From contig JABXHM010000003.1 in assembly GCA_013373625.1 (NCBI GenBank), forward strand, positions 310,001-374,000: DNA of 64,000 nt, written 5' to 3'. How positions within the stretch are numbered: position 1 is the stretch's first letter; each line of letters starts with the position of its first letter. The position numbers and the translations under genes were made by a program. Shown in pieces: positions 4,606 through 50,409 of the stretch. The notes beneath the pieces were generated by a model that worked only from the letters and a program-made list of their open reading frames with translations, did no database searches and was not told the origin of the DNA. Source of the stretch: Alteromonadaceae bacterium. Its GTDB lineage: Bacteria > Pseudomonadota > Gammaproteobacteria > Enterobacterales > Alteromonadaceae.

Positions 4606-4966
4606 AGAAGTAACTTATTGTTTGGTTTGTTACCAGTATAGTGCTTAATCAGAAAATTTCTGGATTGCCACGTAATTATAGAATGCTGAACGATTTTGGT
4701 GATTTTCGTTGCTGCCTCTAACGCATATAATCGAGTCAGAGCTATTGGTCAAAAAAGTGAAAAATCGAAGAACACTCAATCAGTACTGAGCCACTCAACT
4801 CATGGTGTCACAAACCTTAATTACATCAGCACATCACGCGACTAAGAACTCGCATCTGAGCTGAAAGCGTTCTAAAAATGATTCCTTTCCTGTCATTCAG
4901 CGTTATACTTTTGCGGCGGTGATTGATTACGTTGGTACACCGCCACAACCTAAGAGGGCATATGCC
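4606..4966. other. Divergent promoter region
   Basis: About 360 bases between the leftward binding-protein/kinase pair and the rightward qmcA/nfeD pair. It must hold promoters for both. I see no hairpin with a T-run, no recognisable operator and no small gene with a credible ribosome site. Confidence 0.5.
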
Positions 4967-5902
4967 ATGGAAGTATTACTCGATTATATTCTCACGCCAC
5001 AGTTATTTATTTTAATTCTGGTCGTCATCCTGATTAAATCCTCTATTAAATTTGTACCGCAGAATCGCGCGTACCTGATAGAGCGGTTTGGTAAATTCCA
5101 ATCAACCAAAGAAGCTGGCCTTAATTTTATTGTGCCTTTTATTGATCGTGTTGCCGCCGATCGCTCCTTAAAAGAACAGGCAGTGGATGTGCCTGAACAA
5201 AGCGCCATTACCAAAGACAACATTTCATTGCATGTTGATGGCGTGTTGTATTTTCGGGTTTTAGATCCCTACAAAGCAACGTATGGCGTCGACAATTACG
5301 TGTTTGCTGTCACGCAGCTGGCGCAAACAACGATGCGTTCTGAACTCGGTAAAATGGAGCTGGACAAAACCTTTGAAGAGCGTGATCAGTTAAATACTAA
5401 TATCGTCACCTCGATTAACGATGCCAGTGGCCCCTGGGGCATCCAGGTATTACGCTACGAGATAAAAGATATTGTGCCGCCAAACTCTGTAATGGAAGCC
5501 ATGGAAGCGCAAATGAAAGCGGAACGGGTCAAGCGCGCGCAAATTCTTGAGTCCGAAGGCGACCGACAAGCAGCGATTAACCGCGCTGAAGGCGCTAAGC
5601 AGTCGGTGGTGCTGGCTGCACAGGCAGACAAGGAAGAACAAGTACTGCGTGCAGAAGGTGAAGCTAAAGCCATTCTAGCCGTTGCCGAAGCGCAGGCTGA
5701 GGCGCTACGCAAAGTAGGTGAGGCAGCAGACACCGAACAGGGTCAAAAAGCCATTCAGTTAGATTTGGCCACCAAAGCCATCGAGGCCAAACAGGCCATT
5801 GCTAAAGAGTCGTCAATTGTATTGTTACCTGATAGCGCCACCGATGCCGCCAGCCTGGTCACTCAGGCCATGGCAATTATTAATAAAATGAATAAAGAGT
5901 AA
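4967..5902 (+). CDS. qmcA: SPFH-domain membrane protease subunit (stomatin/QmcA family)
   Basis: A 311-residue band-7 protein anchored by one N-terminal membrane segment (about residues 7-24), followed by the SPFH domain (QNRAYLIERFGKFQSTKEAG, DGVLYFRVLDPYKATYGV) and a long charged, Ala-rich coiled coil (about 180-280) that mediates oligomer formation in the family. These proteins form large membrane cages linked to FtsH or NfeD proteases and to lipid domains. An in-frame GTG lies 48 nt upstream, but ATG 4967 has AGAGG at a good distance and begins right before the membrane segment. nfeD follows 5 bp later, the usual pairing. Confidence 0.93.
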   Translation: MEVLLDYILTPQLFILILVVILIKSSIKFVPQNRAYLIERFGKFQSTKEAGLNFIVPFIDRVAADRSLKEQAVDVPEQSAITKDNISLHVDGVLYFRVLDPYKATYGVDNYVFAVTQLAQTTMRSELGKMELDKTFEERDQLNTNIVTSINDASGPWGIQVLRYEIKDIVPPNSVMEAMEAQMKAERVKRAQILESEGDRQAAINRAEGAKQSVVLAAQADKEEQVLRAEGEAKAILAVAEAQAEALRKVGEAADTEQGQKAIQLDLATKAIEAKQAIAKESSIVLLPDSATDAASLVTQAMAIINKMNKE

Positions 5903-5907
5903 TTGGT

Positions 5908-6360
5908 ATGGAATGGATTAACGACAATATTACCACTGCATTAGTGGTGGCCGGGTTGCTGTTATTAACCATTGAAGTCGCCGTGCTGGGCTTTGCCACA
6001 TTTGTTTTATTTTTTGTCGGAATCGCTGCGCTGGTTACCGCGTTAGTGTTTTACCTGGGGTTCATGGAGCCCACTTACCTGAATGCGTTTTTCAGCTGTG
6101 CGTTTTTTACCGCTATTGCCGCGGTAGCGCTGTACAAACCGCTAAAAACAATGCAACAAAAAGTGGACAAGAAGTCAGTTACCGGCGACTTTACCGGCCT
6201 GCGTTTTCGCTTGACTGAAAACATCGGGCCTACCGCACCGGGGAAGCATACTTATTCAGGGATTACCTGGAAAGTGCAAAGCAATCAGTCCATCCAGGCA
6301 GGCACCGAGGTTGAAGTGGTGAATGCTGACGTGGGCACCTTTTATGTTGAGCCTGTATAA
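5908..6360 (+). CDS. NfeD family membrane protein
   Basis: A 150-residue NfeD protein (short, NfeD1b/YbbJ type) without the ClpP-like protease domain. Two or three membrane segments fill residues 8-80 (TALVVAGLLLLTIEVAVLGF, VLFFVGIAALVTALVFYLGF), followed by a small soluble OB-fold domain (KSVTGDFTGLRFRLTENIGP onward, ending VVNADVGTFYVEPV). It lies 5 bp behind the SPFH gene, the standard operon with which NfeD proteins pair to organise membrane microdomains. Only a hairpin terminator separates it from the convergent MFS gene. Confidence 0.92.
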   Translation: MEWINDNITTALVVAGLLLLTIEVAVLGFATFVLFFVGIAALVTALVFYLGFMEPTYLNAFFSCAFFTAIAAVALYKPLKTMQQKVDKKSVTGDFTGLRFRLTENIGPTAPGKHTYSGITWKVQSNQSIQAGTEVEVVNADVGTFYVEPV

Positions 6361-6374
6361 GACAGTTAAGTCAT

Positions 6375-6407
6375 AACGTTCGCACATAGCCTTTTCGTGC
6401 GAACGTT
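6375..6407. terminator. Bidirectional terminator between nfeD and the MFS gene
   Basis: An 11-bp perfect inverted repeat (AACGTTCGCAC at 6375-6385, GTGCGAACGTT at 6397-6407) with an 11-nt loop, between two convergent genes 66 bp apart. The T-run after it is short (TTTT), so termination may be partial. Confidence 0.75.
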
Positions 6408-6426
6408 TTAATGCTGGTATTCAGTG

Positions 6427-7767
6427 CTACCAGCGCTTTATCAGAGCGCGAACCTGAAGCTCGTCAAACTCATTGTTAACTTTTAGATAAAGCTGCCCTT
6501 GCTGCGCATCATATGCAAAGTCCACCACGCCTTTTTGCTGGGCCACCTGATGCAGGTGCGCAATATCGGGACCGTCTGCTTCTGCTACGTTAAGCACCAC
6601 CCGCTTTAACTTATCACCCGAGCGTATTCCTGCCACTATGGCGCACCATATAATCGCTATCGCAACACCACTATAGTACGCCGCACCTGATCCCATTTGG
6701 GTCGTTACAGCACCGGCAAGCACGCCACCAAGAAAGGCACCAAAAAACTGGAAACTGGCATAAATGCCCATCGCCGTTCCCTTTTGGCCGGCAGGCGCAA
6801 TACTCGACAACAGCGCGGGGAAATTCGCTTCAAGATAGTTAAACCCAGTAAAGAAAATTAGCAGGCCGGCGGCCAGCAACCAACTATTATTTGCCGCAAC
6901 AGGGAATACGGCAAAGGCGCTTCCAAGCATCAGTACAGCAGCCAATAACATGGCCCGGGGCGTACGTCCACGGCTACTGCGCATCATCAGTGCGAGCAAT
7001 ACTATCGATATGAGCAGTACCGGCAGATAGAGTGTCCAGTGGCTTTCCAACGGTATATCGAGCGCCACCAGGGTAACAGGCACCTGCACAAATAATAGCG
7101 TGATCATCATATGCAACAGCATTACGCTGACATTTAAACGCCATAAATCTCGCGAAGTAAACAGCTGCCACACCTGCTCCATTCGCGGCAGGGTATCGGC
7201 ATTAATGCGCTGTGGGCTATCAGGCACGGCCCACTTCACCAGTGGCAGGCAGGTTATTGCCAAAATACCGGTGACCCAGAAAATACCGGCCAGTCCCCAG
7301 GCATTGGCAATCAATGGGCCAATCACCACCGCAATATAAAAAGAAAATCCAATAGCGATGCCAATAATCGCCATCACTTTAGCCCGCTGTTGTTCGCGGC
7401 TTACGTCGGTGGCGAGCGCCATAATCGCACCCGCAATGGCACCAGCGCCTTGCAGAATTCGACCGGCAACCAGCCACCACATTGAATCGGCCAGTGCCGC
7501 CACGATGCTGCCCAGGGCAAAAACTGAAAGGCCGAGCAAGATAACCGGTTTGCGCCCCCATTTATCTGACAACATCCCCATGGGTATTTGCAACGCCGCC
7601 TGGGTTAAACCATAGCCACCAATTGCCACGCCGACCAATAGCACTGAATAGTCATCAAACTCCGTTGCTGCCACAGCCAGCACCGGCATAACCATAAACA
7701 ACCCCAGCATTCTCAAAACGTATACAATGGCTAACGTTAACGCGGCACGGACTTCTGTGGCATTCAA
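6427..7767 (-). CDS. yajR: YajR-type MFS exporter with C-terminal ferredoxin-like (YAM) domain
   Basis: A 446-residue major facilitator with about 12 membrane helices. The loop motif between TM2 and TM3 (GMLSDKWGRKPVIL, near residue 65) and motif C-like GAGAIAGAIMA are typical of proton-driven drug/H+ antiporters. After the last helix, about 60 residues (ending VNNEFDELQVRALIKRW) match the small alpha/beta YAM domain that marks E. coli YajR. Substrate unknown; these are inner-membrane efflux pumps. The start ATG at 7767 faces uvrA, so the 191 bp between them carries divergent promoters. Confidence 0.88.
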   Translation of the reverse strand: MNATEVRAALTLAIVYVLRMLGLFMVMPVLAVAATEFDDYSVLLVGVAIGGYGLTQAALQIPMGMLSDKWGRKPVILLGLSVFALGSIVAALADSMWWLVAGRILQGAGAIAGAIMALATDVSREQQRAKVMAIIGIAIGFSFYIAVVIGPLIANAWGLAGIFWVTGILAITCLPLVKWAVPDSPQRINADTLPRMEQVWQLFTSRDLWRLNVSVMLLHMMITLLFVQVPVTLVALDIPLESHWTLYLPVLLISIVLLALMMRSSRGRTPRAMLLAAVLMLGSAFAVFPVAANNSWLLAAGLLIFFTGFNYLEANFPALLSSIAPAGQKGTAMGIYASFQFFGAFLGGVLAGAVTTQMGSGAAYYSGVAIAIIWCAIVAGIRSGDKLKRVVLNVAEADGPDIAHLHQVAQQKGVVDFAYDAQQGQLYLKVNNEFDELQVRALIKRW

Positions 7768-42573: not shown

Positions 42574-42804
42574 CGTACTAGCGCCGATAACACGCTTACT
42601 CGTTAAAATCTGATTAATGCACTTAAGTAAATCACGTCGCGACATCAGTATGCTTAGAGTGGGCTAATTTCGCAGACAACGTCTTGATTCAATTTACATA
42701 TCAGATATTTATAAACATAACGCCATTTTCATTTTTGAGTATTGCATCTGACACCTGGCAATGACAGATTAAGATTTTTACAGTTTGTTAACAAGGTGAT
42801 AACG

Positions 42805-45018
42805 ATGTATAAGTCCGGCAGACGACTGACAATAGTTTCTGTAATTGCGCTTTTAAGCGCCTGCGGTGGTGGTGGCGGAGGCGGAGGCGGAAGCTCTACA
42901 ACGCCGCCACCAGTGGATAACACGCCACCGCCAAATGTCGCGCCTGTTGCCGATGCGGGGGCAGATCAAAGCGTTGATGAACTTACCCTCGTTACCCTGT
43001 CAGGTTCAGGCACAGACAGTGACGGCAGTATCAGCAGTTACGCCTGGTCACAAACGGCTGGCACAGCTGTTACCTTAAACGATGCCGGCATGCAGTCAGC
43101 CAGCTTTAATGCACCAGACTTATCAGCAGATGAAGTCCTGACTTTTCAACTCACCGTTACCGATGACGATGGCGATACCGGCACCGATGTCGTGGACATT
43201 ACGGTCAGAGATATCACGCCTCCAACAAACCCACCGGAAACTATGCAAGTGCCCGAGGGTGGCATACTGATCATTCCGTCTGATGCAGAAAGCTCAGCCG
43301 CTTTTTGGGCGGGCAACGGCAGTGAACCCGTTGGTACCATGACTGTGGTAGATGTTGAACATGAGCATTTCAGTAAAGCGTTAGAACTTGATATTACCAA
43401 TCCAAGCGGTACCAGTTGGAACGGACAAGCACAAATTTTTACCAACGCGGGCCTGCAAAGTGGCGATGTCGTGTTATTGCACTTTTACTTCCGTTCACTC
43501 TCCAGCCAGTATGAAACAGGTACCGGATTTACCTCTGCCGTACTGGAAGGCCCTTCTCCTGATTTTGTCCAGTTTATTAACCGCCGTGTTGATAGCGCCA
43601 GTGAATGGGTTGAGTATTTTATTCCGGCTGAAATCACTCAGGACTTTGATGTGGGTGAACTGGCCATTAAATTTGGCCTGGGTGCAGGAGACCGTCCACA
43701 GTCTTATCAGATTGGTGGCATTGAGCTGTATAACTATCAAACGAATAAATCGCTGGAAGAGCTACCGGTAACTTCCCCTACCTACGCGGGTCGCGACCCA
43801 GATGCTGCCTGGCGTGCAGACGCTGCACAACGTATTGAAACCCATCGCAAAGGTGACTTTACGCTGACACTGCAAGATGCCGATGGCAATGAAATCCCTG
43901 CCACAGACATTCACGTTACCCTGACCAAACATGCTTATCACTTTGGTTCTGCTATCGTTTCCAACCGACTTATAGGCACCGATGAAGATAGCCTGACGTA
44001 CCAACAGAAAGTGTTAGAACTGTTTAATCAGGCAGGGCCTGAAAACGATTTAAAATGGGCACCCTGGATTGGTGAGTGGGGAGAGGACTTCTCACAACAA
44101 ACTACGTTGGCCGGCTTACAATGGCTGAAGGATCACGACATTTATGCCCGCGGGCATGTGCTGGTATGGCCATCTAAACGTAATTTACCCGACATGATGC
44201 AGCAATACTTACCAGACAACACGGACGATGCCGATCCCCAGGCGCTGGTAGAAGTTGAGCAGCATATTGACGATATTACACTGGCAACCGCTGATTTACT
44301 GTCTGAGTGGGATGTCCTGAACGAGCCTTTTGATAATCACTACCTGATGGATGCCTTTGGCGATGAAATTATGGTTGATTGGTTTGAGCAAACACGCGAG
44401 AACTTACCCGACCACAAGCTCTATATTAATGACTACAGCATACTGTCGTCTGCCGGTCAGGATGTGGCGCATCAACAGCATTACCAGGATACCATTGCGT
44501 ACCTGCTTGAGCAGGGTGCACCGCTGGACGGCATTGGTTTTCAAAGTCATTTCAGCGATATTTTAACGGACATCCCCACCGTGTACGCTATTTTAGAACG
44601 TTTCCATCAGGCGTTCCCTGATTCGGTATTCCGTTCTACTGAATTTGATATCAGAACCAACGACGAACAATTACAAGCTGATTACACCCGTGACTTTATG
44701 ACCCTTTTCTTTAGTCACCCTGCTACCGTGGGGATCCAGCTATGGGGTTTCTGGGCACAGCAACACTGGTATCCGGAAGCGGCGATGTACGATGAAGACT
44801 GGCGTGAAAAACCCAACGCAGTAGTTTGGAAAGATTTGATTTTTAATCAATGGCACAGTGAATTTAACGGCCAGACCGATGCCAACGGCCAATTCAGCGA
44901 ACGTGGTTTTTACGGAGAGTACACTGCTAGCTTCACTCATGAAGGCAGTGAACACACACTCAACTTTGTACTTGAGCAAAGTGGGGATAATCAGATTGTG
45001 TTAAAACTGCCAGAATAA
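42805..45018 (+). CDS. GH10 endo-1,4-beta-xylanase lipoprotein with PKD-like and CBM-like domains
   Basis: A 737-residue surface xylanase. Signal peptide with lipobox LLSAC (Cys20), then nine Gly and a Pro-rich linker; a PKD/cadherin-like domain at about 45-137 (VADAGADQSVDEL, TVTDDDGDTGTDVVDITV); a beta-sandwich carbohydrate-binding-like domain at about 145-312; then GH10 from about 335. The acid/base is Glu507 in DVLNEPFD and the nucleophile Glu613 in RSTEFDIR. ATG 42805 has AAGGTG upstream. A 27-bp GGT/GGC/GGA tract encodes the poly-Gly. No other xylan genes are near. Confidence 0.93.
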   Translation: MYKSGRRLTIVSVIALLSACGGGGGGGGGSSTTPPPVDNTPPPNVAPVADAGADQSVDELTLVTLSGSGTDSDGSISSYAWSQTAGTAVTLNDAGMQSASFNAPDLSADEVLTFQLTVTDDDGDTGTDVVDITVRDITPPTNPPETMQVPEGGILIIPSDAESSAAFWAGNGSEPVGTMTVVDVEHEHFSKALELDITNPSGTSWNGQAQIFTNAGLQSGDVVLLHFYFRSLSSQYETGTGFTSAVLEGPSPDFVQFINRRVDSASEWVEYFIPAEITQDFDVGELAIKFGLGAGDRPQSYQIGGIELYNYQTNKSLEELPVTSPTYAGRDPDAAWRADAAQRIETHRKGDFTLTLQDADGNEIPATDIHVTLTKHAYHFGSAIVSNRLIGTDEDSLTYQQKVLELFNQAGPENDLKWAPWIGEWGEDFSQQTTLAGLQWLKDHDIYARGHVLVWPSKRNLPDMMQQYLPDNTDDADPQALVEVEQHIDDITLATADLLSEWDVLNEPFDNHYLMDAFGDEIMVDWFEQTRENLPDHKLYINDYSILSSAGQDVAHQQHYQDTIAYLLEQGAPLDGIGFQSHFSDILTDIPTVYAILERFHQAFPDSVFRSTEFDIRTNDEQLQADYTRDFMTLFFSHPATVGIQLWGFWAQQHWYPEAAMYDEDWREKPNAVVWKDLIFNQWHSEFNGQTDANGQFSERGFYGEYTASFTHEGSEHTLNFVLEQSGDNQIVLKLPE

Positions 45019-45501
45019 AAATGGCTGTGGTTATTTAACAGGTTTAGCACGACCGGAGCCCTTGGTTTAACGCTCCATAGCGCTCAGCCTGTTTAACCAC
45101 GCGGACAAGATAAACCCTCTGTACTAAAACCCGTTCAGGTTGCGTATGTTTATAGCGGCACAATCAGCAAAATGAATATCCCAAAAAAGAACCTTAAATA
45201 AGCTAATCCCGACCTCGCCTTTAATACGGGACGTCTGCTTTTAGCCAGCTTCTACGTAGCCCTTGCAGTGGAAAGGTCAGGGCTAGCCGGTCACCGACGT
45301 CCCGTCACGATAGGGTGTCTTCCATTCATAGTGCACTTTTCCATAGTCGGTCATGCTTAATGATATCTTTAATATTAGATTGGTTTGCTCGGTCATCTTG
45401 TATTTATTTTAATTTGTATATAAATTAAACAATCAGTTAAGTATGGTAGGTATTGGAATTGACTTTGATGCTCATGTTGAGCGCACTGAATCCAGGAGGG
45501 A
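45019..45501. other. Intergenic region with structured repeats
   Basis: About 480 bases between the xylanase and the PEP-CTERM gene. An imperfect inverted repeat (GTGGTTATTTAACAGG near 45027-45042, CCTGTTTAACCAC near 45088-45100) may end xylanase transcription. A second, nested inverted repeat at 45226-45305 is listed separately. No coding frame is convincing. Confidence 0.5.
45226..45305. repeat. Nested inverted repeat (possible structured RNA or element remnant)
   Basis: Outer arms ACGGGACGTC (45226-45235) and GACGTCCCGT (45296-45305) are perfect over 10 bp. Inside them, TAGCCCT (45257-45263) and AGGGCTA (45279-45285) form a perfect 7-bp stem with a 15-nt loop. Together they make an 80-nt two-tier hairpin in a non-coding stretch. 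There is no T-run, so a terminator is unlikely. Confidence 0.55.
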
Positions 45502-45666
45502 TTGATGTCAAAAACACACCTGCAACCTCGTTTCACCTCTGTTTTTAATCACTTACGCAACTGGGATTTATCTTCCTGCTCGGCAATCACTAGTCTGGGG
45601 AAGTTTTTACGTAGCGCTGCGTGTATTTCTGCGAAAGCAGATTACTCAATATATAAAGGATTAACT

Positions 45667-46476
45667 ATGACACGTTTGTTTATTAAAGCACTGGTACCCA
45701 TATCTCTGATTTTATCGTTTAACTTAAAGGCGGACATTATTACCGTCAATTTGTCTGGAACTTTGAACTTTAATTCCGATTCAAGCTCCGGAACAGATGT
45801 AATTGGTCTGGATGGAGTAAATATTTATACTACGAGTATCTTCAAAGCAGCCGATACTCCTGATAGGACTGATATCTTGACCTACCCCATAGATAAAACA
45901 ATAACTAATGTAACCTGGTATAGTAAATTGCACTCGTATTACACAGACTCTTTTCTCGATGGCCTTGGCAATCCAATAACATTAGGCAACAGCTATGATG
46001 TAGATAATCGGCGTACCCTTGACCTTAGCTATTCTAGGTTTTTTGCGCAAAACAGAGCCAACTACGATAACAATAGCGATGCTGTCATTTTTTACTCCGG
46101 TTTAGATCGTGATTTGTATCATATAAGCCAAAATGCACCGGGAACATCATACCGATTTTATCTACCGAGTTTACACTTTGATGTCGGCCCTCTCTATTTC
46201 GGCTATCAAGATATAACACTAGACAGTTTCGACTTTAATGACCTGTCACTTGCCAATCTGCGAGTTGATGACGCTCGACTCTCCTACAATGATGGCTCTA
46301 CTCAGCATGCATATTATAGTCTCGACAATGTTTCGTTCGAAATATCGGCATTAGATGATAACGAAGAGACTATATTACCAGAGCCGGCGTCATTAGCACT
46401 TACTGGCATGGCGTTATTAGCTACCTTTTCGTTGAGAAGACGTAAAAAATTCGACAAGTTTTGTAGCATTGCCTAG
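45667..46476 (+). CDS. PEP-CTERM sorting-domain protein
   Basis: An exported protein of 269 residues: signal peptide (TRLFIKALVPISLILSFNLKA), a Ser/Asp/Tyr-rich beta domain of unknown function, and a C-terminal PEP-CTERM sorting signal (LPEPASLALTGMALLATF followed by SLRRRKK). Exosortase would cleave at the PEP motif and anchor or release it, usually together with exopolysaccharide. No exosortase gene is in the window. ATG 45667 has AAAGGA upstream. An in-frame ATG at 45505 has an even better AGGAGG, but would add 54 residues before the signal peptide; see findings. Confidence 0.85.
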   Translation: MTRLFIKALVPISLILSFNLKADIITVNLSGTLNFNSDSSSGTDVIGLDGVNIYTTSIFKAADTPDRTDILTYPIDKTITNVTWYSKLHSYYTDSFLDGLGNPITLGNSYDVDNRRTLDLSYSRFFAQNRANYDNNSDAVIFYSGLDRDLYHISQNAPGTSYRFYLPSLHFDVGPLYFGYQDITLDSFDFNDLSLANLRVDDARLSYNDGSTQHAYYSLDNVSFEISALDDNEETILPEPASLALTGMALLATFSLRRRKKFDKFCSIA

Positions 46477-46498
46477 AGCAAAAAAAAATATTTTTAGT

Positions 46499-46519
46499 GC
46501 CTTCAGAATATCTGAAGGC
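46499..46519 (+). terminator. Hairpin after the PEP-CTERM gene
   Basis: GCCTTCAG (46499-46506), 5-nt loop, CTGAAGGC (46512-46519), 23 bp after the stop. The tail is T-rich but interrupted (CTACTTTATG), so efficiency is uncertain. Confidence 0.6.
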
Positions 46520-46880
46520 CTACTTTATGTCGCTTCCGTATGCAATTTGAAACCATTTATCTCTGAATAAATGGTAATCCAAGCCCGGTTATGGCCAAAT
46601 ACGTGCCTATGAAATGGGTAAACAAACACTTCAGTAACCTTACCGGGTACGCTGACATCATTTTTAACTCGAAAGGTGAAGAGCTGCTGTGTGGCCTTTA
46701 CGCCGACCTGTATTGCTATTCGAAACAAACCCATGAGTCTTAAAACCCTCTGGCTTATATGACGTGCACCAGGAACCTGGCCGAATACCTGCTTCACCCG
46801 GGTACCGAAACCTATCTGGGGAATCATCACGCTGAGCTGTAAAGCTTATGCAATACACTTGTTGCTCGCTCTGCTGAGAT
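46520..46880. other. Region with only short, unassigned open frames
   Basis: About 360 bases. A 50-codon frame on the plus strand (46591-46743, starting MAKYVPMKWVNKHF) and a 101-codon frame on the minus strand (46525-46830) overlap; neither has a clear ribosome site nor a family I recognise. This may be gene debris inside the accessory block. Confidence 0.3.
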
Positions 46881-47105
46881 GTGTGCTCACTTGCCCCCGT
46901 TTACTCAGACAGTTCGTTTGATTTGGTGGTCATCAGCACTGACCCAATAGTTACAGAAGTGGGTGAGCTGGTTCACCAAGCGCTGTCTACGGCGCCTGAG
47001 TCATCGAAAGGGCGGATACAGCATATTGCTTACGCGTTAATCGAAGCATCATCACCACAAGCGCGTATATGCACTATGATGGATGAGATTAGGCGAAACG
47101 ATTAA
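46881..47105 (+). CDS. Short hypothetical frame, possibly a gene remnant
   Basis: A 74-codon frame starting with GTG. The translation from DLVVISTDPIVTEVGELVHQ onward looks like real soluble protein (balanced charge, amphipathic helices). However, there is no ribosome site at the start, and the first 12 codons look like read-through of non-coding DNA. It could be the 3' end of a decayed gene. No family recognised. Confidence 0.25.
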   Translation: MCSLAPVYSDSSFDLVVISTDPIVTEVGELVHQALSTAPESSKGRIQHIAYALIEASSPQARICTMMDEIRRND

Positions 47106-47145
47106 CTAGGTGTGCAAATACTGGTTTTAACCAGGTTTGTCTCTT

Positions 47146-48855
47146 TCACAGTCTAAATTGATTCCTTAGCCCAAGACCAATTAAAAAGATGAGTATCAGG
47201 GATACAATGCTCTGTACGGTAATAAACCCATAGACCCAATCTACCGAGCCGCTGAAATATAAAGCTTCTGCTTTAGTGCGTATAGATCGTCCTATTGGGA
47301 TAAAGGGCAGGCTATTGACGACCGCAAACCCCAGCATATGCAACAGATTAGGCAATTTCCCCGCTGCGATAAACGCAATAAGCGTGTAAGACATCGCAAA
47401 ATACAACCATGACAATGCCAACCCAATCATTGGCCGCACGTATGAACGTCCATAGTCCGAGACAAAGGAGTACAGCATGTCCATGACATTTTTTATGAAA
47501 GAGGGTTCGTTGACCCAGCGTTTCGCCTGATTCTCCAAAGCGTTAAACTTTAGCGCTTCATGGTGATGTTTAAACTGCTCCGCGATTTCCTTCATCCGCC
47601 CGAGCTTTGATTGAGCGGTCTTGTCCTTTACATACCGATGCCAGCATGTTTTCCAACTGCCTTTTTCCCGAACCAGATTAACTTTCAGCCCGTCCATATC
47701 CACATGGTGAGTCAGTTTTGTGCTTCGTAGGTCAGGAATGCAATTAAATTCCATGTTATTCATTATCAGCGGACCATCAATAGCTGCCCCTCTCAAAGTA
47801 AAAGTTGTTAAATCAATTGCGGGCGATGGTGTATCAGATTTTTGCATCGGTAATTCGAAGGAGATGTATTTGCAATTGATTCTCTCTAACTTTAATTTCC
47901 CCTTCCCAAAATGTGTTACTCTAAAGTCCGTATAACCATCTCCGAAATCAGCACGATCAAACGAGACAAAAGTGCCGCCAAAGGTGGCCTTATTAAATGT
48001 GACATTCCCAGTTCCAAAGGCGGCTTTATCAAAAGAAATACTTCCAACACCGAAAGTGGCACCAAAAAACGAAACATTTCCTTCACCGAAATTGACGTTA
48101 TTAAACCTGAAATTCCCATTACCAAATTTTGCTCTATAGAATGAGACGTTTCCAAATCCAAACATGGCCTTATCGAAAGTAACATTTCCACTTTCAAATA
48201 TGGCCTTATAGAACGTGACATTCCCAGTTCCAAAGGTTGCCGTATCAAACGATTTCATCCCTTTACCGAAAGATGCACCATTAAATGAAACACTCCCACC
48301 GCCAAAGGTGGCTCCACTAAACGAAACATCCCCATCTCCAAAGGTGACATCATCAAACGAAACATCCCCGTCGCCGAAGCAGGCGCTATTAAACGAAACA
48401 TATCCATCGCCAAAACAGGCGCTATTAAACGAAACATATCCATCGCCAAAAGTGGCGCCAATAAATGATATATCCCCATCGCCAAAGTTAGCACCATTAA
48501 ATAAAACATCACCAACACCAAAGATAGCACCAACAAACCAAACATAGCCATCGCCAAAAGTGGCGCCTTTAAACGAAACGCATCCTTCGCCAAAAGTGGC
48601 GCCTTTAAACGAAACACATCCTTCGCCAAAAATAGCATTAACGAACGAAACTCCTCCGTTTGGGAATTTATATCGTTCAAATGATATTAAATGCTTGCCT
48701 GTACCACGACATTTCGAAAAATCAATACATCCGAAGTCTACATTTGCGTCTGGATTTTTCTTAACCCACCGATTCCAAGCATCCCGGCCTTCTAACCAAA
48801 GGTTGACGACATCTTTGCCTTCCAGAGTTACTTCTGGTTTGTTTGGTGTATCCAT
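47146..48855 (-). CDS. Membrane protein with 21 tandem 12-residue repeats (pentapeptide-like solenoid)
   Basis: About 569 residues. An N-terminal segment of about 69 residues is followed by exactly 21 uninterrupted 12-residue units of the form [ST]-F-x-x-A-x-F-G-x-G-x-V. A further segment of about 140 residues carries a Trp/His-rich helix (CWHRYVKDKTAQSKLG), and three or four membrane helices close the protein. The Phe spacing (5 then 7) differs from the strict five-residue register of pentapeptide repeats but resembles the Pentapeptide_3 group, so a right-handed beta-solenoid is likely. Function unknown. Start is uncertain: ATG 48855, ATG 48867 and TTG 48885 are all in frame without a strong ribosome site. 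Confidence 0.8.
   Translation of the reverse strand: MDTPNKPEVTLEGKDVVNLWLEGRDAWNRWVKKNPDANVDFGCIDFSKCRGTGKHLISFERYKFPNGGVSFVNAIFGEGCVSFKGATFGEGCVSFKGATFGDGYVWFVGAIFGVGDVLFNGANFGDGDISFIGATFGDGYVSFNSACFGDGYVSFNSACFGDGDVSFDDVTFGDGDVSFSGATFGGGSVSFNGASFGKGMKSFDTATFGTGNVTFYKAIFESGNVTFDKAMFGFGNVSFYRAKFGNGNFRFNNVNFGEGNVSFFGATFGVGSISFDKAAFGTGNVTFNKATFGGTFVSFDRADFGDGYTDFRVTHFGKGKLKLERINCKYISFELPMQKSDTPSPAIDLTTFTLRGAAIDGPLIMNNMEFNCIPDLRSTKLTHHVDMDGLKVNLVREKGSWKTCWHRYVKDKTAQSKLGRMKEIAEQFKHHHEALKFNALENQAKRWVNEPSFIKNVMDMLYSFVSDYGRSYVRPMIGLALSWLYFAMSYTLIAFIAAGKLPNLLHMLGFAVVNSLPFIPIGRSIRTKAEALYFSGSVDWVYGFITVQSIVSLILIFLIGLGLRNQFRL
47893..48648 (-). repeat. 36-bp coding tandem repeat, 21 units
   Basis: 756 bp made of 21 units of 36 bp, in phase throughout and encoding the 12-residue repeats. 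Some neighbours are almost identical: units beginning at 48551 and 48587 share a 29-bp stretch, and units at 48371 and 48407 likewise. This points to recent duplication or slippage inside the array. Confidence 0.85.
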
Positions 48856-48976
48856 ACTTAATCTCATTAAAGGTTTAACAAACAACCGTTGAGGCTTGTG
48901 ACTTTGACAAAGTTATTGATTGAATACGCATCTCTGAGTAAGTGGCTCTGATTTCCTCTTTTATGCTGTGAATTTG

Positions 48977-49612
48977 CTATAAAACAAAATCCTCGCAATC
49001 CTTGTATTCACTGCATTCAGCTTTCCAACGAATAGGTTTCGTACTTTTTAGAGAATAGATAATCTGAGTGGGAGTCGCATCAGGAGTGAGCAGCTTTTCA
49101 TATGTCACAATTACCTTAGCATTAATGGCCTTGATGGTGACATTGTTCTCACTCGGGTATTTCGGTACGCCATTAACTCCTGAAGCGCATTGCTCAGGAC
49201 TATTGGGATTCATATAAACACAAATTTCTACTGCAGATTTGATGCCTCCAAGCCCAAACTCAGCATCTTTTAACAGCCTTGACGTGTCCGATAAAAGAAA
49301 CGTTTTATACTTGTCGCTCTCATTTCTTTTGATGACTTCTAGGTTTTCAGTAAGCGCCCAGGATGACTCTAAAATCGTGAAATCAGCAACGGCTTCAGCA
49401 GAGGTATATTTAGCGCTTTCAAATGTGTAGGTAAACGCGCAATTTTTGATATTTTTTCCAGGAACATCGACACACTTGCTCCAGGTGACACCAGTAACTA
49501 TATCGCTTACTTCTTGAAGAGCGGCTAGGATAGCCTTATTTTCGCTATTGTCAGCTTGTGTTTCGCAGCCGCTTATAAGCAAAACGGCTGATATAATCGT
49601 CACTAGCTTCAT
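48977..49612 (-). CDS. Hypothetical lipoprotein
   Basis: A 211-residue predicted lipoprotein with signal peptide KLVTIISAVLLISGC (Cys16). The mature part has four further Cys pairs-worth of spacing (WSKCVDVPGKNIKNCAF, VEICVYMNPNSPEQCASG, KAECSEYKDCEDF), suggesting disulfides in the periplasm. No family recognised. ATG 49612 has AAGGATG 7 nt upstream; the open frame extends to 49690 without need. It lies between the repeat protein and the OmpA-like pair, all on the same strand. Confidence 0.78.
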   Translation of the reverse strand: MKLVTIISAVLLISGCETQADNSENKAILAALQEVSDIVTGVTWSKCVDVPGKNIKNCAFTYTFESAKYTSAEAVADFTILESSWALTENLEVIKRNESDKYKTFLLSDTSRLLKDAEFGLGGIKSAVEICVYMNPNSPEQCASGVNGVPKYPSENNVTIKAINAKVIVTYEKLLTPDATPTQIIYSLKSTKPIRWKAECSEYKDCEDFVL

Positions 49613-49737
49613 ATCAAGACATCCTTTTCCCGTGTTCCAGCGTGTAGGTACATGACATAGTGCCACTTCGCTGGTGTATTTTCCATACACCGCGCAGGTA
49701 ATGTCTGAAAGGATTTGAAGGCTGGGGTTTATCGGGC

Positions 49738-50022
49738 CTATATTTGTTTCAATACTGCCACAGGCATTGTAGTTACCTGCTTAAAGTAGCTCTCATCACT
49801 ATTGATGTATTTGCCAAGTCGAGTTTTCAGCACATCATCGGTTACATCCTCAAGCAGCGCTATTAACGATTTCTGGTCGCTCAGCGCATTGATGACCCGC
49901 TCTTTAGTGGCGTCCTGACCTAATGACAACACCACGGCACTAACAACGTATGCGCCAATCCGATCAATGATACTGATTGATTGCCGGCTGAATTTTTCGT
50001 TAAATCTTTGAAGTAAGTCCAT
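49738..50022 (-). CDS. Small hypothetical protein behind the OmpA-C domain gene
   Basis: A 94-residue soluble protein without signal peptide. A central moderately hydrophobic helix (IGAYVVSAVVLSLG) is followed by charged helices (DATKERVINALSDQKSLIALLEDV). GGAGAG precedes the ATG, a good ribosome site. It starts 13 bp after the OmpA-C gene and is probably co-transcribed. No family recognised. Confidence 0.65.
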   Translation of the reverse strand: MDLLQRFNEKFSRQSISIIDRIGAYVVSAVVLSLGQDATKERVINALSDQKSLIALLEDVTDDVLKTRLGKYINSDESYFKQVTTMPVAVLKQI

Positions 50023-50035
50023 TTGGCTCTCCAGA

Positions 50036-50335
50036 TTAATATGTCAGTACAACCGAGCGGTTTGGTGTCGTTTTAGAGCGGATTTCGCCCACTGATAGCG
50101 TGACCAGTTGAGATTCGTCGACGCCAAGCTCAAGAAATAGTTTCTTAACGGCGTTTGCGCGGTCCATGGCCAGCTTGTAATTGTACTGCTCGGTACCCGG
50201 CTCGCTGGCATTGCCTTGAATACTAACACGGATGTCAGGGTTAGCGATTAAGAGCCTGGCATTTGGCTCTACGACCTCAGCGGCGTTGAAGGGAAGTTCT
50301 GCAGAGTCATTGACGAACTCTACATTATGAGACAC
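50036..50335 (-). CDS. Stand-alone OmpA C-terminal-like domain, no signal peptide
   Basis: 99 residues that read as one OmpA-C (peptidoglycan-binding) domain: NPDIRVSIQGNASEPGTEQYNYKLAMDRANAVKKLFLELGVDESQL matches the family core, though the usual G-H-T-D is G-N-A-S. There is no signal peptide and no membrane anchor. The start is GTG without a ribosome site, and a stop codon in frame lies about 55 bp upstream. It is either the 3' remnant of a longer gene or a cytoplasmic domain of unusual role. The terminator of the next gene upstream is only 75 bp away. Confidence 0.6.
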   Translation of the reverse strand: MSHNVEFVNDSAELPFNAAEVVEPNARLLIANPDIRVSIQGNASEPGTEQYNYKLAMDRANAVKKLFLELGVDESQLVTLSVGEIRSKTTPNRSVVLTY

Positions 50336-50409
50336 ACGGGTGGCACTTCTTTGCGTGTCTTCATAGAGCTCAATAATCAGAGCCTTAACGAGTTAATATA
50401 CACTGAAAC

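Follow-up and report, generated by a model that had tools for sequence, protein, structure and literature searches.

A minus-strand gene in the window (the whole 64,000-nucleotide stretch of an Alteromonadaceae genome that we analyzed) encodes a long, strictly periodic pentapeptide-repeat solenoid joined to a predicted two-transmembrane (two-TM) pore-loop module. We read its product as a HalA-like channel that is gated by the solenoid, does without the HalB partner enzyme, and serves as an accessory anti-phage or superinfection effector, and we put the probability of this reading at about one half.

A 12-residue pentapeptide solenoid fused to a membrane module

The open frame runs from a TTG at 48885 to a stop at 47146 (47146..48885, minus strand; 579 aa); in our judgement the ATG at 48855 (residue 11) is the likelier start, giving a protein of 569 aa. 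Residues 80-331 (47893..48648, minus) consist of 21 perfect 12-residue units, as a first-pass annotation made from the sequence alone had claimed: Phe occupies unit positions 2 and 7 in 21/21 units, Gly occupies positions 8 and 10 in 20/21 each, and Ala occupies position 5 in 18/21. Lag-12 identity was 0.571, against 0.108 ± 0.019 (maximum 0.175) when the same residues were shuffled 2,000 times, and since it lies above every one of them, the periodicity is far beyond chance. One weaker unit precedes the array (residues 68-79), degenerate units follow residue 331, and the repeats are partly visible in the DNA itself with a period of 36. Each unit can be read as two pentapeptides, V-S-F-x-x and then A-x-F-G-x, plus an insertion of two extra residues; the alternating spacing of 5 and 7, which had been set apart from that of ordinary pentapeptide repeats, is indeed present, and the two repeat types are related but not identical. 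We infer a four-pentapeptide coil of 24 residues with two-residue bulges on opposite sides.

The copy of the gene in the nearest relative (genome G051) is broken into two frames, and nonetheless the C-terminal modules of the two copies show a dN/dS of 0.12 over 218 codons. Together with the existence of relatives across Proteobacteria, this value indicates that the frame is a real gene.

The sole Pfam match is to PF13576 (Pentapeptide_3; E 1.2e-14, 54.6 bits against a gathering cut-off of 27), in seven stretches, the best of which places 43 protein residues on 39 model positions. That alignment suggests that the PF13576 model has an 11-residue period; set beside PF13576 proteins, the window protein has a regular two-residue insertion, which gives it a period of 12. 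In PHROGs, the protein matches phrog_25690 (E 3.9e-96, four stretches), as do all 36 relatives aligned with it. The units therefore do fall into existing families, contrary to the initial view that none could be assigned, but the searches turned up no characterized family with the same membrane module: PHROGs gives no function for phrog_25690, and the channel reading is an addition of the present analysis.

Other searches were largely silent. NCBIfam had no match to the window protein, and Pfam had no meaningful match to the C-terminal part in 56 members (among the best 25 of 32 families). Against PDB sequences, phmmer with the whole window protein found no match at E up to 1, and a profile of the C-terminal module (C-module) at E up to 10 gave six chance-like rows, none of them HalA or a pore-loop channel. 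INPHARED phages yielded only two weak matches to the window protein and none to its relative on viral contig L095. Among the open-licence papers listed on pentapeptide repeats in phage defence, superinfection exclusion, and ion or potassium channels, none describes the family. PADLOC (2023 library) had no match for the gene; this library predates the publication of Hailong in 2025, so its silence is uninformative.

A predicted pore-loop channel resembling HalA

Ahead of the array lies an N-cap (residues 11-67; 48685..48855, minus) with the consensus GxxAxxLWLxGxxxWNxWV, in which W27 and N28 (AlphaFold2 numbering) are invariant in a 37-row alignment that includes the window protein. The AlphaFold2 model places helices at residues 14-21 and 24-33 of this part, which probably caps the beta-helix. 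For the full protein, the model (37 sequences) had a mean pLDDT of 90, rising to 94-98 over most of the repeat, where a beta-solenoid is predicted with confidence and a strand recurs every six residues or so. Beyond it, a helical linker (residues 424-476; 47458..47616, minus), helical in the model and conserved in a 67-row alignment (the window protein and 66 loci, of which L092 is a fragment), bears the family motif RLKEIAExNKxHxxALRFHADEMRAKRW in that alignment. The two-TM pore-loop channel-like module follows (47152..47439, minus), comprising, in TTG numbering, TM1 at 483-508, a short helix at 514-525, the loop LPFIP at 526-530, a helix at 531-543, and TM2 at 549-578. The protein ends in FLIGLGLRNQFRL (47149..47187, minus), at a position where the family alignment mostly has FLIGLGLRNRFRI.

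Foldseek with the full model returned pentapeptide repeat proteins among its matches, and HalA at rank 28 (E 0.024, prob 1.00) amid generic beta-helices. VIA on the same model was unhelpful, all of its rows being generic beta-helices (tailspikes, EtpA, lyases).

Modelled alone from 56 sequences, the C-module reached a mean pLDDT of 90 and was predicted to run in the order of three soluble helices, TM1, short helix, loop, further helix, and TM2, so that TM1, pore helix, loop, and TM2 are all present in the monomer model. Its best solved match in Foldseek was 9nyi_A (HalA with oligodeoxyadenylate; prob 0.98, E 0.013), followed by K+ channels at E > 1, with no E-value below 0.001. VIA-align also put HalA on top (Z 11.2, rmsd 3.9, 192/223 residues, model residues 1-223, 8% identity); of the other 49 of the best 50 rows, 48 were pore-loop cation channels (Kir, GsuK, NaK, MthK, Nav, TRPV1; Z 9.5-10.8) and one was titled only 'transmembrane protein', with the caveat that for helical parts a Z under about 13 may reflect merely a common arrangement. 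Entry 6baa_A aligned over 90 residues (Z 10.6, rmsd 2.1); rmsd was 1.6-2.8 in the better Kir, GsuK, and MthK rows and 10-13 in the NaK rows. Judged by the model, HalA stands just slightly above the channels by Z, yet of these 50 rows it is the only one that spans the whole C-module. BFVD gave no convincing match, its top entry being a marseillevirus inward rectifier (E 2.1).

The window protein thus resembles the tetrameric pore-loop cation channels (Kir, GsuK, NaK, MthK) in its predicted TM1, short helix, loop, and TM2, and the better rows of the monomer comparison give an rmsd of 1.6-2.2 across some 80-90 residues. It differs from them in lacking a TVGYGD-type selectivity filter: its loop reads LPFIP, and the P and the F of the loop are each found in 49/67 aligned rows. 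On the strength of these models, we consider it very likely that the C-module has a channel fold. The first-pass annotation was right that the solenoid is fused to a C-terminal membrane module, but the module that it treated as an anchor is predicted to be more than that, having a two-TM pore-loop channel fold whose nearest solved protein is HalA.

The Hailong anti-phage system was reportedly described by Tan et al. in 2025, and PDB 9nyi is the structure of its HalA. As described in two papers, PMC12265719 among them, HalA is the DNA-gated channel of Hailong, which binds oligo-dA and opens on removal of the DNA. HalA and the window protein's family share the order of their parts, namely a W-containing N-cap, a pentapeptide beta-helix, a helical linker, a (Y/W)G...R motif at TM1, a two-TM pore-loop module, and a short basic C-end, and both are carried by phages. 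They differ in that HalA has a short crown where the family has a far longer, strictly periodic (12 or 11 residues) solenoid, and GYT at the loop where the family mostly has PF.

A full-length family profile searched against all PDB sequences ranked HalA first (E 0.0048), over the N-cap and solenoid only; HalA itself also matches PF13576. Starting from the HalA fragment in this match, we retrieved complete HalA genes (L115 and L114, then L116 and L125-L127); L115, on a viral contig, is 100% identical to the fragment, and L114 lies on a Sulfitobacter plasmid. The six homologues that we counted have the channel part at their C-terminus (L125 is truncated at a contig edge); the weaker pentapeptide matches to HalA, namely L111 and L117, in which no channel part was seen, and L110, L112, L113, and L119-L123, stand outside this count. 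Aligning the full-length family with these six by hhalign gave Prob 93.7 (E 2e-7), and the C-module alone gave Prob 12.0 (E 0.0024); both alignments paired the family's NYGQSIxRP with HalA's NxWGxxxxR at TM1. Against two or three HalA sequences, Prob was 57.8 or 92.3 for the full length and 1.1 or 3.8 for the C-module (overall range 1-15). In a scripted re-run with the six, the full-length comparison (Prob 89.9) scored 56.5, a value that 25 block-shuffled controls did not reach (36.7 at most), and the C-module alone scored 30.3, with its controls at 24.0 or below; forced global alignment in the same run gave Prob 36 for the full length and 1.9 for the C-module. PHROGs assigns HalA to phrog_24530 and HalB to phrog_24076; HalA had no match to phrog_25690 at E 0.001, and none between the window protein and phrog_24530 was listed at E 0.01. 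The sequence evidence for common descent with the HalA family is weak but suggestive, and the structural likeness is the stronger part.

The clearest departure from Hailong concerns the partner gene. An NTase frame lies immediately adjacent in 6/6 HalA homologues (recognized by Pfam in L115 and by motif or eye in the rest), as the HalB NTase gene adjoins HalA in Hailong, whereas none adjoins the window gene, and the block that surrounds it contains no HalB-like gene. A motif screen of up to eight neighbours on each side at 73 loci (the 71 relatives described below, the window, and L005) left one plausible but doubtful minimal NTase, at position +5 of L050, the other regular-expression matches being judged chance by eye. 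As an adjacent HalB is a defining feature of Hailong, we do not file the gene as a Hailong member; the window protein may still work like HalA despite the missing HalB.

Elsewhere in the same genome, a contig (G000:C48, locus L001) carries a pentapeptide protein of 324 aa whose C-terminal part is hydrophobic (865-1836, minus) beside a 220-aa NTase (202-861, minus; PF01909, E 2.6e-6). In pairwise comparison, the former resembles HalA (E 4e-5, pentapeptide part only) and the latter HalB (E 2e-5). Against the PDB, the pentapeptide protein found AlbG and MfpA and not HalA, the NTase found the Mnt antitoxin (E 0.089) and HalB (E 0.94), and a HalB query had no match in the genome at E up to 0.01 in a search run without a positive control. 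These two genes are possibly a HalAB-like pair, on a thin likeness in sequence.

An accessory gene of phages, plasmids, and a movable block

A C-module scan of species genomes found at least 67 loci, which their record titles place in Alpha- and Gammaproteobacteria, many of them in marine genera; a Pseudoalteromonas donghaensis plasmid carries one copy, and viral contigs added four further loci. The C-end is intact in 66 of these 71 loci (near-duplicates included); L061, L077, L084, L086, and L093 lack it and were dropped, and L039, L048, and L070 share their records with loci of genomes G086, G175, and G143, respectively. Among related genomes, 7/196 have the gene (its own genome included), and a 12 kb query of 59 genomes of the same genus (own included; E 1e-10, with up to five candidates scored in each) found the gene region only in its own genome and in G051.

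In the window, the gene sits in an accessory block of about 5.3 kb (45084..50405) with a G+C content of 42.7%, against 48-49% in the flanks. The matching chromosomal site of G051 is without window positions 45084-50405, with 23 bases separating the flank matches, and pieces of the block lie together on another G051 contig; the block has changed place. Direct or inverted repeats at its ends were limited to a 10-base direct match (45092 and 50471) that is likely due to chance. Just upstream of the gene is a 237-aa ORF, lipoprotein-like by eye and with no Pfam match (48977..49690, minus), which adjoins the gene in G051 too, and further upstream is a 99-aa OmpA-family domain protein (50036..50335, minus; PF00691, E 2.5e-13). 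On the plus strand, the block also holds a 324-aa ORF (45502-46476) with a C-terminal PEP-CTERM signal just under the Pfam cut-off, and a GH10 xylanase-like protein with a PKD domain (42742-45018) lies at its edge.

On viral contig L095, an unknown phage ORF lies upstream of the gene and a DNA methylase, endolysin, terminase, and portal lie downstream, and L030 (the same record as L094) and L036 have much of this order in common. Viral contig L096 has a terminase nearby, and on L097 the gene points the other way, with a head maturation protease on one side and a minor head protein on the other, in a gene order that we take to be that of a Mu-like phage. Copies are thus found in phage contexts of three kinds, on a plasmid and, here, in a movable block. 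The IMG/VR contig L115 has a HalA (4938-6697) identical to the solved HalA over the 155 residues tested, together with HalB, immediately ahead of a tail terminator gene and a minor tail gene. Hailong can therefore travel on phages as well, and these serve as carriers of both families.

We also considered 96 immediate neighbours of 80-700 aa, drawn from all loci except thirteen (the window and L005 among them). The best 25 of 66 Pfam families included LysR (10), pentapeptide (6), and HEPN (2), the best 25 of 126 PADLOC families included scattered methylases and one PD-Lambda-2, and these best families contained no constant partner or clear defence-island signal. Pentapeptide-like neighbour ORFs formed one single-linkage cluster over eleven loci. 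In L043 and L050, the gene at -1 is a same-strand ORF that extends 1-4 bases into the beginning of the channel frame; these two are probably the HEPN_RiboL-PSP matches.

The same data bear on what such a channel would be for. It could be HalA-like and yet serve housekeeping or stress (ion balance, osmotic or nucleotide stress), prophages having picked up the gene. Many copies without recognized phage genes, LysR regulators at 10/96 neighbours, the absence of a constant defence partner, and purifying selection on the C-module would all suit such a role, but its patchy presence in related genomes, the relocation of a block of lower G+C, and its repeated carriage by phages and a plasmid would not, and we regard it as unlikely, if the most serious of the alternatives. 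The protein could also act for the prophage in lysis or superinfection exclusion, as a pore that times lysis or as a block to incoming phage DNA; its solenoid would then be a rod that binds proteins. In L095, L030, and L036 the gene does lie two or three ORFs ahead of a lysozyme gene, and the family does belong to phrog_25690; against this, the L097 copy is on the opposite strand amid head genes, a recurring lysis cluster is absent beside most loci, and the predicted fold is that of a pore-loop channel. To our knowledge, that fold matches no known holin type. We consider this role improbable.

The solenoid itself varies greatly. Among 63 proteins (the window protein included, four short ones left out, and the near-duplicates L059/L080, L054/L056, L030/L094, and L037/L038 retained), the period is mostly 12 residues in 42 and mostly 11 in 21, and the longest regular chain of F-steps, which is 47 in the window protein, varies between 9 and 81. 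The 81 chained steps belong to a 1207-aa relative (L039 4167-7787, on the contig of G086:C65). A protein at L014 (1501-2978; G086:C153) has the same N-cap and 12-residue solenoid with a different C-terminal part that lacks a meaningful Pfam match, which suggests module exchange between effectors. Streptomyces accounts for 73/87 plasmid records matched; its plasmid pentapeptide proteins (e.g. NZ_CP109263.1) share F..A.F 12-mers with the window protein at 41% identity over query residues 6-334, but the one at L006 (1446-3008) differs in having a hydrophobic N-terminal part and no C-module.

A rod so regular, with a unit number that varies so widely between relatives, might be a scaffold, ruler, or adhesin whose C-terminus is a mere anchor, and the first-pass annotation had raised the adhesin and the ruler. 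However, we saw no signal peptide in the window protein by eye, so the solenoid is probably cytoplasmic, which speaks against an adhesin or surface ruler; moreover, the specific predicted channel fold and the conserved motifs at either end of the membrane part exceed the needs of an anchor, and we hold such a role to be very improbable. A membrane-tethered DNA mimic of the Qnr/MfpA type that shields a DNA enzyme would fit the pentapeptide fold and the weaker full-model Foldseek matches (EfsQnr, AlbG, AhQnr, MfpA), but is set aside as barely plausible because the solenoid has just a mild net negative charge (in 58 proteins, of which 81% are negative, the median is -3.25 per 100 aa; the window protein has -1.7).

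Discussion

We favour a solenoid-gated, HalA-like channel that acts without HalB. In this protein, a capped cytoplasmic pentapeptide beta-helix, presumably right-handed and built of some ten coils of 24 residues with two 12-mers each, would stand on a helical linker above the two-TM pore-loop module, and four such modules would assemble as a tetramer. The solenoid would act as the sensor, keeping the pore shut at rest, either by itself or together with a ligand that it binds. A molecule that the phage makes or alters would then shift the state of the solenoid and open the pore, and the resulting ion leak would stop growth or kill the cell ahead of phage release. Prophages, the plasmid, and the chromosomal block would be carriers of the gene as accessory cargo. 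Of the components of this model, we think a working gated channel probable, and for a role against phages we would grant somewhat less than an even chance, or at most an even one. The suggestion that the protein is toxin-like survives only in the sense of such a self-acting channel effector.

More broadly, and more doubtfully, the family may represent a large and undescribed class of solenoid-gated channels that need no HalB and are carried, mostly in marine bacteria, by prophages, plasmids, and movable blocks. In such channels, the solenoid would gain and lose whole 12- or 11-residue units and so be an evolvable sensor, which would sense phage molecules directly and open the pore without a nucleotide-signal enzyme. 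This raises the question of whether a variable-length repeat solenoid can be both the gate of an ion channel and a sensor of phage. If the channel reading is true, HalA would be one branch of a wider set of pentapeptide-gated channels, of which many lack a partner enzyme, and an uncharacterized phage protein family would gain a function.
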